Shown piece by piece: positions 53,817 to 58,123 of a stretch of DNA of 64,000 bases. Source of the DNA: Anaerolineales bacterium. Its GTDB lineage: Bacteria; Chloroflexota; Anaerolineae; Anaerolineales; Villigracilaceae. Within the stretch, counting starts at the first letter, position 1, and every line of letters begins with the position of its first letter. Below the pieces are notes generated by a model. The model saw only the letters and a list, made by a program, of their open reading frames with translations. It ran no database searches and was not told where the DNA came from. The position numbers were made by a program, and so were the translations under genes. The stretch lies in the NCBI GenBank assembly GCA_016789025.1, contig JAEURC010000052.1, forward strand, positions 1 to 64,000, in the 5' to 3' direction.

Positions 53817-53853
53817 TCTGTTTGCATCATAGCATAATTTGAAAGAGGGAGGA

Positions 53854-53859
53854 TACAAT
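53854..53859 (+). promoter_or_regulatory. -10 box of a leaderless gene
   Basis: TACAAT, 6 bp before the ATG at 53866. Confidence 0.55.
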
Positions 53860-53865
53860 TTAGAA

Positions 53866-55038
53866 ATGGCCGTGAAGCGCGCTTTGCTTTATCTTCTTAT
53901 TATTGTCATCCTGCTGGGCATGATGCTGGCGGTGGCGTTGTATATCCCCTCAGCCCTGCCCGCCCGGTCGGACTTTAGCGCGCTCTACAACACGACGCTC
54001 GCGCTGGTGAACGGTGTGCCGATCTACGATCTCGACGCGGTGCAGGCGGTGGCGATGCGCGCGTCAAATGTGCCGTCGGATAAATTTTTTCTGGCGCGAT
54101 TCCCATACCCGCCCTGGTATGCGTTATCCGTGTTCTATCTTGGCTATCTGCCGGCGCAGAACGCGGCAACGCTCTGGTTCGAATTGAACCTCGTAATGCT
54201 ATTCACGTCGGTTTGGCTGTTGACCGACGGGTGGGATGGCAGAGCACGGCTGGTTGCCTTCCCCCTGGGGTTATTCTTTTTACCGGTGTTGGGGGCGTTA
54301 TCTGTCGGGCAGTACGATTTCCCGGCTTTGTTAGGCGCGTCGTTGCTGATTTATTCCCTGCGCAGAGAAAACACCGCCCTGACCGTGTTCGGCATGGTTC
54401 TGCTCACATTCAAGCCGCACATCGGCACATTGATCTTGCTCGCCGCGCTGGGCTGGTTGATCGGGCGGCGGAACGACTTCGGTCGGCGCGCCTTGCGAGG
54501 CGTTTTGATCGCATGCGCCCTGCTTTGCATCCTCGGGTTCCTCGCAGATTCCAAATGGATTCTCAGTTATCCTGCTTTGTTGTTGAACTATCAAGGGGAG
54601 GGCAATGTGGCATCCTGCTCGGAGTGCGCAAGTTTACCGGTCTTCCTCTCGCGCTGGTTGCTCGATGGATCGCTGGCGTCTGCGGCGAGGATCGCCCTGG
54701 GGATATTGCTGGCGTTGATCGGGATCTTCATTTGGAGTCGCAACAGGTTGACGAAATCTCCCGAATCCGTTCTGACGTTCGGCCTGCTTGCCACCCTGCA
54801 GGTCAGCCCCTACTTGTACAATTACGATTTCCTGCTATTGCTCATACCATTCGTCGTGCTCGCCGCAGGGAAGATGTTCTTTCAACGCGCTGTGGTGATT
54901 CTCTCGTACGCGATCCCAACAGCCGCGCTGTTGATCTTGGGCAGAGATGGGAATGTGTTTCTTATTTTAGCGGCGATGGCATTACTGTGGGGGATAGTCG
55001 GTAGATCACAAAAATTCTGCGTAGGATGCGCTCTCTAG
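53866..55038 (+). CDS. Membrane glycosyltransferase, GT87/DUF2029-like
   Basis: 390 residues, polytopic, with about ten helices from LLYLLIIVILLGMMLAVALYI to VFLILAAMALLWGIV. An early SDFSALYNT and LARFPYPPWYALSVFYLGYLP match the GT87 (DUF2029) family, which uses polyprenyl-phosphate sugars outside the membrane. Its last 12 or so codons (GRSQKFCVGCAL-stop) are encoded by a dispersed twin-hairpin repeat, so the natural C-terminus has been replaced. TACAAT 6 bp before the ATG suggests a leaderless mRNA. It is divergent from comEC. Confidence 0.83.
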   Translation: MAVKRALLYLLIIVILLGMMLAVALYIPSALPARSDFSALYNTTLALVNGVPIYDLDAVQAVAMRASNVPSDKFFLARFPYPPWYALSVFYLGYLPAQNAATLWFELNLVMLFTSVWLLTDGWDGRARLVAFPLGLFFLPVLGALSVGQYDFPALLGASLLIYSLRRENTALTVFGMVLLTFKPHIGTLILLAALGWLIGRRNDFGRRALRGVLIACALLCILGFLADSKWILSYPALLLNYQGEGNVASCSECASLPVFLSRWLLDGSLASAARIALGILLALIGIFIWSRNRLTKSPESVLTFGLLATLQVSPYLYNYDFLLLLIPFVVLAAGKMFFQRAVVILSYAIPTAALLILGRDGNVFLILAAMALLWGIVGRSQKFCVGCAL

Positions 55039-55092
55039 CGCAAATTTGACGTTAGAGAACGTCAATTACGCGCTTTCGTGAAGTACTGATAG
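54996..55092. repeat. Twin-hairpin repeat, copy 1 (overlaps a gene end)
   Basis: GGTAGATCACAAAAAT, hairpin TGCGCT-CTCT-AGCGCA, hairpin TTGACGTT-AGAG-AACGTCAA, then CGCTTTCGTGAAGTACTGATA. Copy 2 is at 57888-57984. Confidence 0.85.
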
Positions 55093-55229
55093 TAAAAAAA
55101 CAAAATATGAGTTACGCAGTTGAACGTGTTTCGCCGCAGGTGCGCCAACTGCGTAAGTCCTAACGAAATAAAAAACTTCCGAGGCTTAAACCCGGAAGTT
55201 TTCAACTATCGAACTATTCAACTTTCCAA
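55093..55229. other. Gene-free gap
   Basis: Contains a long-loop inverted pair TTACGCAGTTG / CAACTGCGTAA (about 55111-55158), the cysS terminator and octamer repeats; no gene. Confidence 0.6.
55172..55202 (-). terminator. cysS terminator
   Basis: AAAACTTCCG (55172-55181) and CGGAAGTTTT (55193-55202); on the minus strand the stem is followed by TTTTTTATTTC. Confidence 0.8.
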
Positions 55230-55233
55230 CTAT
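55202..55233. repeat. Octamer tract at the end of cysS
   Basis: TCAACTAT, CGAACTAT, TCAACTTT, CCAACTAT; the last unit contains the cysS stop codon. Confidence 0.7.
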
Positions 55234-56627
55234 CCCCATCTCCATGTCGTTCCATCCTTGCTGTCTTCAATGGTCACGCCCATGGCTTTGAGCTGGTCGC
55301 GGAGTTCGTCTGAGCGCGCCCATTGTTTTTGTTTGCGGGCTTCGGTGCGTTCGGCGATGAGCGCGATAACTTTCGCTTCGTCCTCGCTGGAGCCGGTCTT
55401 TTCTTTGAGTTGCAAGCCGAACACGCCGGTCAATTCGCGCAACATTTTTTGCGCGGGTTCGAGTTGAGAATCGTTTGCGCCGTTGTCGCGGGCGGTGTTA
55501 ATCGCTTTGACGAGTTCGTATAACGCGGCAAGCGCGAGCGGGGAGTTGAAGTCGTCGTCCATCGCGTCGGCAAAGGATTGCTTGATAGCTTCGGCTTGCG
55601 CGGCGAGCTCGGAGGCGGTCCCGGCGGAGAGTCCGCTTGACGAGGGCGAGGCAGGTCGAAGCGCGGACTTGAGGCGGTCGAGCGATTTTTCGGCGGCGTC
55701 TTGAGTCTCGTCGTTGAAGATCAATGGCGCGCGGTACGATCCCATCAACACGAGCATCCGCATCACGTCGGCGTCGCGTGTTTTCAAAAAATCTTTGATG
55801 CTGACGATGTTGCCGAGCGACTTGGACATCTTCTCGCCGCCGAGTTGTAACATGCCGTTGTGGATCCAATAGCGCGAAAATTGTTTGCCCGTGTATGACT
55901 CGGTTTGCGCGATCTCGTTTTCGTGATGAGGAAAGATCAGGTCGTTGCCGCCGCCGTGAATGTCAATTTGTTCGCCGAGTTCGGCGAGGTTCATCGCGGA
56001 ACATTCGATGTGCCAGCCGGGGCGCCCCTTGCCCCACGGACTGTCCCATGAAATTTCACCGGGTTTCGCGGCTTTCCACAACGCGAAATCCATTGGGTGA
56101 TTCTTCGCTTCGCCCACTTCGATGCGCGCGCCTGCCTGCATGTCGTCGAGTTTGCGCCCGGACAGTTTGCCGTAATCTTTATCGTCGGTGACGCTGAAAT
56201 ACACGTCGCCGTTCGACGCGGCATACGCGGCTTCTTTGTGGATCAGCCCTTGAATGAATTCGATGATGAGCGGCATGGTCTTGCTCACCTGCGGATTCGA
56301 TGTGGCAGGAAGCACATTTAAATTCTTGAGATCGTTAGCATAATCTTCGATATAACGCTGTGACAATTTGAGCGGGTCTTCGCCGAGCGCGTTGGCGCGG
56401 TTGATGATCTTATCGTCCACGTCGGTGTAATTCATCACGTGCCGCACGTTGTAGCCGCGATATTCGAGATAACGGCGGATGATGTCGAACACGATGGCAG
56501 ACATGGCGTGACCCACATGCGCATCGTTGTACACTGTCACACCGCAGACGTACATCTTGACGACGTTCGGCTCGAGGGTTTGGAAGTCTTCTTTTTTGCG
56601 AGTGAGGGTGTTGTAGAGTCGGATCAT
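55230..56627 (-). CDS. cysS: Cysteinyl-tRNA synthetase
   Basis: 465 residues from MIRLYNTLTRKKEDF, full length. Class I motifs: VCGVTVYNDAHVGHAMS (HIGH equivalent HVGH; zinc Cys), WHIECSAM and GGGNDLIFPHHENE (other zinc ligands), and GEKMSKSLGN (KMSKS). It charges tRNA-Cys. The whole upstream gap to the PIN-TRAM gene is an inverted repeat (56642-56716), and the stop codon lies in an octamer tract. An in-frame upstream start at 56666 would be repeat-encoded and is not favoured. Confidence 0.97.
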   Translation of the reverse strand: MIRLYNTLTRKKEDFQTLEPNVVKMYVCGVTVYNDAHVGHAMSAIVFDIIRRYLEYRGYNVRHVMNYTDVDDKIINRANALGEDPLKLSQRYIEDYANDLKNLNVLPATSNPQVSKTMPLIIEFIQGLIHKEAAYAASNGDVYFSVTDDKDYGKLSGRKLDDMQAGARIEVGEAKNHPMDFALWKAAKPGEISWDSPWGKGRPGWHIECSAMNLAELGEQIDIHGGGNDLIFPHHENEIAQTESYTGKQFSRYWIHNGMLQLGGEKMSKSLGNIVSIKDFLKTRDADVMRMLVLMGSYRAPLIFNDETQDAAEKSLDRLKSALRPASPSSSGLSAGTASELAAQAEAIKQSFADAMDDDFNSPLALAALYELVKAINTARDNGANDSQLEPAQKMLRELTGVFGLQLKEKTGSSEDEAKVIALIAERTEARKQKQWARSDELRDQLKAMGVTIEDSKDGTTWRWG

Positions 56628-56641
56628 CACATTCTCTTTTC

Positions 56642-56716
56642 TAAACACAAAGGACACGAAGTACACAAAGGATTTAAAAAGAAAACCTTAGTGACCTTCG
56701 TGTCCTTCGTGGTTAA
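56642..56716. repeat. Inverted repeat of 9-bp CACGAAGGA-type words
   Basis: TAAACACAAAGGACACGAAG on the left is mirrored by CTTCGTGTCCTTCGTGGTTA on the right; each arm is built from 9-bp units. Confidence 0.75.
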
Positions 56717-56719
56717 ATT

Positions 56720-57799
56720 TTACTTTCTTTTCTTCCCATTATCCTCTTCCACCCGCGCGAAGATCATGCGACCCGCCGCAGTCTGGAGGACTTTCGTGAC
56801 AACCACTTCTTTATATTCGCCGATGTAATCGTGACCGTTCTCCACCACCACCATCGTGCCATCGTCCATATAGCCCACGCCCTGACCGTGTTCCTTGCCT
56901 TCCTGGAAGATGTTCAAGGTCATGCGCTCGGCAGGCAGAACAACGGACTTGACCGCGTTCGCCAACTCATTGATGTTGAGGATCGTCACGCCTTGCAGTT
57001 CGGCGACCTTGTTCAAGTTGTAATCGTTGGTGAGGATTGGACATTTCAATTGCTTGGCAAGAACGACGAGTTTATCGTCCACTTCGCGCACGCCCTCGGC
57101 GTTGATGTCGCTGATACGCACGAGGATGTTCGGAAGTTTTTGCAGTTCAGCCAGCGCGTCCATGCCGCGCCGCCCGCGTTGACGGCGCAAACCGTCCGGT
57201 GAGTCGGCGATGTATTGCAGTTCATTCAACACGAAACGCGGGATGAGAAGCGTGCCGGGTAAAAATCCCGTTCGGGCAATATCCGTCACCCGCCCGTCAA
57301 TGATCACGCTCGTATCCAGTAAGATGGTGCGGTTAAGATTCGTCCATGAAGACGAAGAGCCGCCCTCGCCGCCGCGTCCGCTCAACGTGCTGAGCAGACC
57401 CATAATATCTCCCTGCCGCATCACGAACAGCGAAATACCGAGCCACGCGAACGCGATCACGCCGACCAGCGGCATGATCTGACCGAACGGTTTAGGCAGT
57501 AACGAGAGCGGAAAGGCAAGCAGAGCGGCGGTCAATAGACCTATGATCAAGCCGAGCAGACCGGCGAAAAGAGTCTCCGCCGAGAGCCGCCCCAAGCGGA
57601 CGCGCACCGCGCGAGCCGGGCGCGTCGTCACATACGGCGTCAGCACCAACCCTGTCAACGCGCCGAGCAACCCGATGATCGCGGTATAACGGATGGATTC
57701 ATATTCGTTTCCGCCCAACCCGTACCCCCAGATGCCCGCGACGATCCCGATAAAGATCATGCCAACAATACGCAGAATAAATTCAACGCTGACGTTCAT
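56720..57799 (-). CDS. PIN-TRAM domain membrane protein (YacL-like)
   Basis: 359 residues from MNVSVEFILRIVGM with AAGGAG upstream. Four N-terminal membrane helices (about 8-135), a Ser/Gly linker, then a PIN nuclease domain: ILLDTSVIIDGRVTDIARTG (catalytic Asp), FVLNELQYIADSPDGLRRQRGRRGMD and CPILTNDYNLNKVAEL, ending with a TRAM RNA-binding domain (GVGYMDDGTMVVVENG). YacL-type proteins are predicted membrane-tethered RNases; substrates are unknown. Confidence 0.93.
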   Translation of the reverse strand: MNVSVEFILRIVGMIFIGIVAGIWGYGLGGNEYESIRYTAIIGLLGALTGLVLTPYVTTRPARAVRVRLGRLSAETLFAGLLGLIIGLLTAALLAFPLSLLPKPFGQIMPLVGVIAFAWLGISLFVMRQGDIMGLLSTLSGRGGEGGSSSSWTNLNRTILLDTSVIIDGRVTDIARTGFLPGTLLIPRFVLNELQYIADSPDGLRRQRGRRGMDALAELQKLPNILVRISDINAEGVREVDDKLVVLAKQLKCPILTNDYNLNKVAELQGVTILNINELANAVKSVVLPAERMTLNIFQEGKEHGQGVGYMDDGTMVVVENGHDYIGEYKEVVVTKVLQTAAGRMIFARVEEDNGKKRK

Positions 57800-57887
57800 A
57801 AAAAACTCCTTGATAAAGTACGAATAATGACGGATGATAGCACGGCAGAGATGGCTAGTCAAATAGACCTTCGGTGGAATTGTTATA

Positions 57888-58075
57888 ATCGGTAAATCAC
57901 GAAAATACTGCGTAACTTGCGCTCTCTAGCGCAAATACGGCGGTAGAGACCGCCAAATACGCGCTTTCGTGAAGTACTGATAATCGGTAGATCACGAACG
58001 CGTAGTAACGACTTCAGTCGTTCGATGAAAGAGCGACTAAAGTCGCAACTACGAAGCCTTTCGTGAAGTTTGATA
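57888..58075. repeat. Twin-hairpin repeats, copy 2 and a hybrid copy in tandem
   Basis: Copy 2 (57888-57984): TTGCGCT-CTCT-AGCGCAA and GGCGGT-AGAG-ACCGCC between ATCACGAAAAT and CTTTCGTGAAG. The hybrid (to about 58075) keeps GGTAGATCACGAA and CTTTCGTGAAG ends but carries ACGACTTCAGTCGT and GCGACTAAAGTCGC hairpins. The region from 57800 to 58123 has no gene. Confidence 0.85.
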
Positions 58076-58123
58076 AGGACAGACGCCTCTTTCCACGGGC
58101 AAGCTTGCCTCTAACCCTCAACC

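Follow-up and report, generated by a model that had tools for sequence, protein, structure and literature searches.

The window, the whole stretch of 64,000 nucleotides that was analysed, is part of a 3.41-Mb draft genome (G000) and carries two twin-hairpin copies that are 86% identical over 98 bases, flanks included. The original prediction that two such copies lie here was borne out; their exact limits are listed below, and each lies between direct 5-bp repeats. Unrelated genes, cysS and a gene of the PIN/TRAM type, are also found within 54996-57984. The features were assigned as follows.

54994-54998, no strand: target site duplication ATAGT to the left of MITE copy 1, a direct 5-bp repeat with 55089-55093
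54999-55088, forward strand: MITE copy 1, enclosing a REPIN; terminal inverted repeats CGGTAGATCACAAAA / TTTCGTGAAGTACTG; z of -4.2 for folding as single-stranded DNA
55027-55042, forward strand: REP hairpin 1 of copy 1, TGCGCT-CTCT-AGCGCA, with the foot GCGTAG at 55019-55024
55046-55065, reverse strand: REP hairpin 2 of copy 1, inverted, TTGACGTT-AGAG-AACGTCAA, with the foot TACGC at 55068-55072
55089-55093, no strand: target site duplication ATAGT to the right of MITE copy 1, matching 54994-54998
57885-57889, no strand: target site duplication ATAAT to the left of MITE copy 2; a single ATAAT at the empty site in G017 and G012
57890-57979, forward strand: MITE copy 2, enclosing a REPIN; z of -6.2 for folding as single-stranded DNA; absent in G017 and G012
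57917-57934, forward strand: REP hairpin 1 of copy 2, TTGCGCT-CTCT-AGCGCAA, with the foot GCGTA at 57910-57914
57939-57954, reverse strand: REP hairpin 2 of copy 2, inverted, GGCGGT-AGAG-ACCGCC
57980-57984, no strand: ATAAT duplication between MITE copies 2 and 3, shared by both copies in tandem
57985-58072, forward strand: MITE copy 3, the same frame with an unrelated twin-hairpin cargo, GTAG-TAACGACTTCAGTCGTT ... GCGACTAAAGTCGC-AA-CTAC
58073-58077, no strand: the sequence ATAAG, the degraded right duplication of MITE copy 3

The cargo of MITE copy 3 consists of two GTAG hairpins with the centres ACTTCAGT and ACTAAAGT, and counterparts of this copy are present in other genomes (L230-L232). 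A 399-aa open reading frame (53839-55038) runs at its 3′-end into MITE copy 1, which supplies its last residues and its stop codon, and this insertion is common to G012. Two further repeats lie nearby: at 56642-56715, upstream of cysS, an imperfect inverted repeat of 34 bp (CACAAAGGACACGAAGTACACAAAGG...), which is a dispersed hairpin repeat in most genomes of the genus, and a palindrome (GAGTTACGCAGTTG...CAACTGCGTAAGTC) adjoining MITE copy 1 at 55106-55162, of which the word GTTACGCAGTTG occurs at a few other loci as well.

As single-stranded DNA, copies 1 and 2 each form an outer stem and two inner hairpins. They fold far better than shuffled sequences, and not by chance (z of -4.2 and -6.2, respectively; 0 of 200 shuffles as good). 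When hairpin 2 is compared in register, two pairs differ on both sides between the copies and are still paired (A-T to G-C and T-A to G-C), and copy 2 has lost the two T-A pairs at the outer end of this stem (A.A and C.A). Compensation at several positions of this stem had been described; it is seen at two pairs and fails at the two outer ones.

The frame is approximately 90 bp, below 300 bp, without coding capacity, and is bounded by imperfect 15-bp terminal inverted repeats CAGTAGATCACGAAA / TTTCGTGAAGTACTG. BLAST with copy 2 as query recovered 13 near-full-length framed copies in G000, including both window copies, and the pattern CAGTA(G/C)(A/T)TCACGAAA describes the frame ends. Exact 5/5 direct repeats flank 48 of the 68 distinct frames of the genus-wide set, compared with 9.9 on average and a maximum of 18 when the right ends were re-dealt 1000 times. 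All 48 exact duplications are AT-rich and of the form ANNNT, with ATAAT or ATTAT most frequent. At 57885-58077, where the window has copy 2 followed by the third frame, G017 and G012 have one ATAAT, which is an empty site. Copy 1 is older than the insertion of copy 2, as its ortholog occurs in G012; the interior of that ortholog has been deleted between GCGC repeats, and it is therefore uninformative on the stems. No parent element with the same terminal repeats and a transposase gene was recognised among the ends listed in 18 genomes, for which approximately 20 unpaired or contig-end cases were inspected; the frame would be moved in trans by a transposase of the DDE type. In G009 (L292-L301), ends of the same MITE frame are found at many contig ends and are followed by other palindromic interiors (GGCTTGAACATGG..., CGGAAAACAAGG...), probably representing a variant, of high copy number or greater length, at which the assembly breaks.

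The cargo of the framed copies is a pair of inverted GTAG-type REP hairpins (a REPIN) with the loop CTCT/AGAG; REP elements are short hairpins in DNA that a single-strand transposase recognises. A hairpin scan covering 864 kb of G000, with the sample taken as 40 stretches of 20 kb, revealed that the commonest perfect hairpins are centred on TAGAGA/TCTCTA and that many of them are free-standing. Their layout is NNN-RCG-YT-AGAG-AR-CGY-N'N'N'-(C)TACGC, which on the other strand reads 5′-GCGTAG followed by the hairpin, the layout of a REP. The family is of the GTAG type, with the foot GCGTAG, a stem of about nine pairs and the loop CTCT or AGAG depending on the strand. Among 37 free REPs, 28 have the foot GTAG and 7 have GTAA, in keeping with a short palindrome with a GT(A/G)G foot. 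Across the genus, the foot and loop of the free-standing hairpins are constant, and the outer stems are variable and mostly paired. One strict form alone occurs 36 times in G000, 96 times in G005 and 59 times each in G010 and G016 (control pattern, 0 or 1), and G008 and G010 likewise hold many free REPs. At the sites inspected, the REPs are extragenic, and inverted pairs are found both within frames and beside a RAYT gene. At one intergenic site, a relative (L138) carries the REP pair in the orientation opposite to that at 26947-26985 of contig C83 in G000, and the pair seems, from this alignment, to have been inverted in place.

Five genes for Y1 transposases were detected in G000, and one of them (C76, approximately 69.99-70.47 kb) is centred in the densest REP cluster, with inverted REP pairs on both sides. 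Its product matches the NCBIfam family NF047646, REP-associated tyrosine transposase (RAYT), at 117 bits against a cut-off of 80, and the sole solved relative found by sequence is TnpArep [PDB 4er8]. The C76 RAYT was compared with 57 RAYT/Y1 loci that align to it, drawn from the genus and a wider genome collection. A hairpin with the AGAG loop lies within 400 bp in 14 of 14 loci with at least 62.9% identity to the C76 RAYT, though these are about 10 distinct loci as four seem to be the same locus from two collections, and in 0 of 43 more distant loci (at most 42% identity; one listed twice). The relatives with names are Candidatus Villigracilaceae and other Anaerolineales MAGs. By this association, the predicted cognate enzyme of the hairpin is one RAYT clade. 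No RAYT scoring near the C76 clade was found in G008 (best, 66.7 bits), and the search did not find the clade in G008 or G010. Since free REPs are numerous in both genomes, loss of the cognate RAYT has to be assumed there. Different hairpins border two other RAYT-like genes of G000, namely GGCGGGATGGCATCCCGCC / GTGCGGATTGACAATCCGCAC at L084 (1120-1850), a pair that differs in the stem too, and GACAAACTTAAGTTTGTC / GTAGGACAAACCTAAGTTTGTC at L085 (1190-1900).

That the stems covary around a constant loop, as originally proposed, held in larger alignments. The covariation score of the 37 free REPs was 0.600 against 0.187 in shuffled alignments (0 of 500 as high), with slid controls reaching at most 0.138. 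Because these REPs had partly been chosen for pairing, two more samples were drawn without a pairing condition on the outer stem. In 33 hairpins selected on their core and foot, pairing holds at 116 of 132 outer pairs, compared with at most 73 in 2000 re-deals. In 43 hairpins from G004, G005 and G008 selected on the loop and a single arm, it holds at 144 of 172 pairs, compared with a maximum of 86 in 5000 shuffles. Covariation is weaker in 41 framed copies (0.105 against 0.065 shuffled, 0 of 500). As the aligned sequences share ancestry, these shuffle counts are not probabilities. Compensated changes in place were seen directly at one orthologous REP beside the RAYT gene, downstream of the same neighbouring gene, where TGGACG/CGTCCA in L239 and L265 corresponds to CGGACG/CGTCCG in L269 (T-A to C-G). 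At the same REP, CGCT/GGCG stands for CGTT/AACG in L268/L238, which is one compensated pair and one G.T, and L266 has one G.T. At other free REP sites, where intergenic regions turn over completely, stem changes in place were mostly untraceable by ortholog comparison, and they could be followed only next to the RAYT gene.

In the framed copies, compensated pairs mark subfamilies (GGCGGT/ACCGCC, GGCGTT/AACGCC and GACGTT/AACGTC), and it is as members of different subfamilies that the two window copies differ. Hairpin 2 includes a non-Watson-Crick position in 18 of the 41 framed copies (16 with one and 2 with two). At the right foot, GTAT predominates in the framed copies (30 of 41) and GTAG in the free REPs (28 of 37), and the last foot positions matter for cleavage in the RAYTs that have been studied (PMC8266576). 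The framed copies therefore probably spread by their terminal repeats and travel as MITEs rather than through the RAYT. The two copies are not a single folded unit that evolves, but MITEs that each enclose a REPIN. The suggestion that selection or a copying mechanism acts on the folded form is correct in the way established for REPs: the hairpin is that of a RAYT, and enzymes of this class work on REP DNA folded as a single strand (PMC8266576).

One MITE frame carries at least three unrelated twin-hairpin cargos, and the AGAG cargo occurs in two unrelated frames, which is the less ordinary feature of the system. The 68 frames contain the AGAG cargo in 57 cases, GACTTCAGTC/GACTAAAGTC in 3 cases in addition to 57985-58072 of the window, TTGCACTG in 5 cases, and a few others. 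In G008, 11 near-identical copies of the AGAG REP pair were retrieved (L215-L225) in a second MITE-like frame with the ends CGCTCTGTTGCAA, and these copies are probably recent.

We consider it very probable that the window copies are non-autonomous MITEs, each with a REPIN whose hairpins belong to a GTAG-type REP family of one RAYT clade, with foot and loop fixed and the stem drifting in pairs. Group 3 TnpAREP enzymes have perfect palindromic REPs as substrates, in which they recognise the foot and the loop (PMC8266576). By analogy with the biochemistry of other RAYTs, the enzyme would bind the single strand in its folded form by contacts with foot and loop, and pairing would be all that is required of the stem; for the C76 RAYT, such reading is an extrapolation from proteobacterial RAYTs. 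Under this model, the foot and loop would stay fixed because they are read, the stem would be free to drift by paired changes, and a free REP with an unpaired stem would no longer be copied.

The window copies may differ because REP alleles were swapped as one block, and not because single positions were compensated one by one. Hairpin 2 would have been exchanged with another REP allele in one event, through recombination or repeated capture, which is compatible with the main explanation and is a plausible course, although we lean against it. Linker and hairpin 2 differ together between subfamilies and hairpin 1 is nearly constant, hairpin 2 of L202 plus its foot (ATCGGCG..CGCCGATTACGCG) is nearly equal to a free REP beside the RAYT gene, and the three unrelated cargos of one frame fit such exchange. 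However, a swap leaves the source of the stem diversity of free REPs unexplained, and single pairs have changed at a fixed orthologous site. More speculatively, and with considerable doubt on our part, the frame could be a vehicle that repeatedly takes up and exchanges REPIN cargo, with a RAYT acting on the folded strand to insert or swap palindromes, and REPINs could thereby spread without their own RAYT.

It is unlikely that copying instead of selection keeps the stems paired, by quasipalindrome template switching in which one arm templates the other at replication and restores perfect hairpins. The stems vary greatly but are paired at most positions, each of the four pair types is present, including G-C/C-G flips that need unpaired intermediates, and G.T intermediates are few (2 of 216 cells and 8 of 172 in two samples), as would be expected of such a process. 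However, unpaired single changes persist in hairpin 2 of the framed copies (one in 16 of 41, two in 2 of 41), and G.T and loop changes persist in the orthologous REPs, so that any correction between arms is not quick, and arm copying leaves the conservation of foot and loop unexplained. Within the RAYT-based explanation, arm-to-arm template switching could contribute, as the few G.T pairs leave room for it. It was also considered that the outer stem bases might be taken over from the target site when a REP inserts. A role as RNA, in which host selection on a structured transcript, terminator or attenuator accounts for the covariation, is very improbable: covarying stems and intergenic location suit it and RNA of the same sequence would fold alike, but there are 0 Rfam matches in the window at the gathering score, presence varies at orthologous intergenic sites even between near relatives, the target duplications are exact, the link to one RAYT clade is exclusive and G.U-type pairs are few. 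Structured RNA was rejected, as it has no Rfam match and fits presence/absence and the duplications poorly.

Several elements of this arrangement have precedents. REP families tagged by GTAG and their dimers are reported, including in Chloroflexi (BMC Genomics 2013, PMC3733652), and they resemble the present family in the GTAG foot, a 6-13 bp stem, a short loop, inverted dimers and subfamilies with alternative complementary stem residues. Loop and stem are different here (CTCT/AGAG), and the outer stem is highly variable. For A. variabilis and H. neapolitanus, the same survey describes GTAG-15 and CGTC-1 dimers enclosed by palindromic frames (PMC3733652), in a passage without mention of target duplications or of more than one cargo per frame. 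In contrast, the frame described here is a MITE with target duplications and empty sites, and it carries several cargos. REPINs associated with RAYTs (PLoS Genet. 2011, PMC3116915) likewise have two inverted REPs as a unit, a RAYT flanked by its REPs and reported compensatory changes, but there the REP parts are highly conserved and compensation is in the spacer, whereas here it is the REP stems that vary, around an unchanging loop. Group 3 TnpAREP/REP systems of Stenotrophomonas and Marinomonas (PMC8266576, PMC2817692) likewise have perfect palindromic REPs of ∼8 bp, which in those systems are recognised by foot and loop. Complementary changes in REP stems have been attributed to selection (PMC2817692), and such compensation is already on record for REPs (PMC2817692, PMC3733652). 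As REP pairs within palindromic frames are in the literature too, the REP/RAYT family nested in a MITE is new within a type already known. Very short hairpins with compensatory changes, the small dispersed repeats SDR4-6, reportedly occur in Nostoc, where they are said to be often nested in minitransposons and where an RNA intermediate has reportedly been proposed, which differs from the RAYT link here.

With this family, the Chloroflexota (Villigracilaceae and relatives) gain a well-delimited REP/RAYT system in which foot and loop are fixed and the stem is almost free, a natural experiment on what a RAYT recognises in its substrate. As part of such a MITE chimera, REPINs could spread even where their own enzyme is missing, which may be why REPs are present in genomes that lack a matching RAYT.
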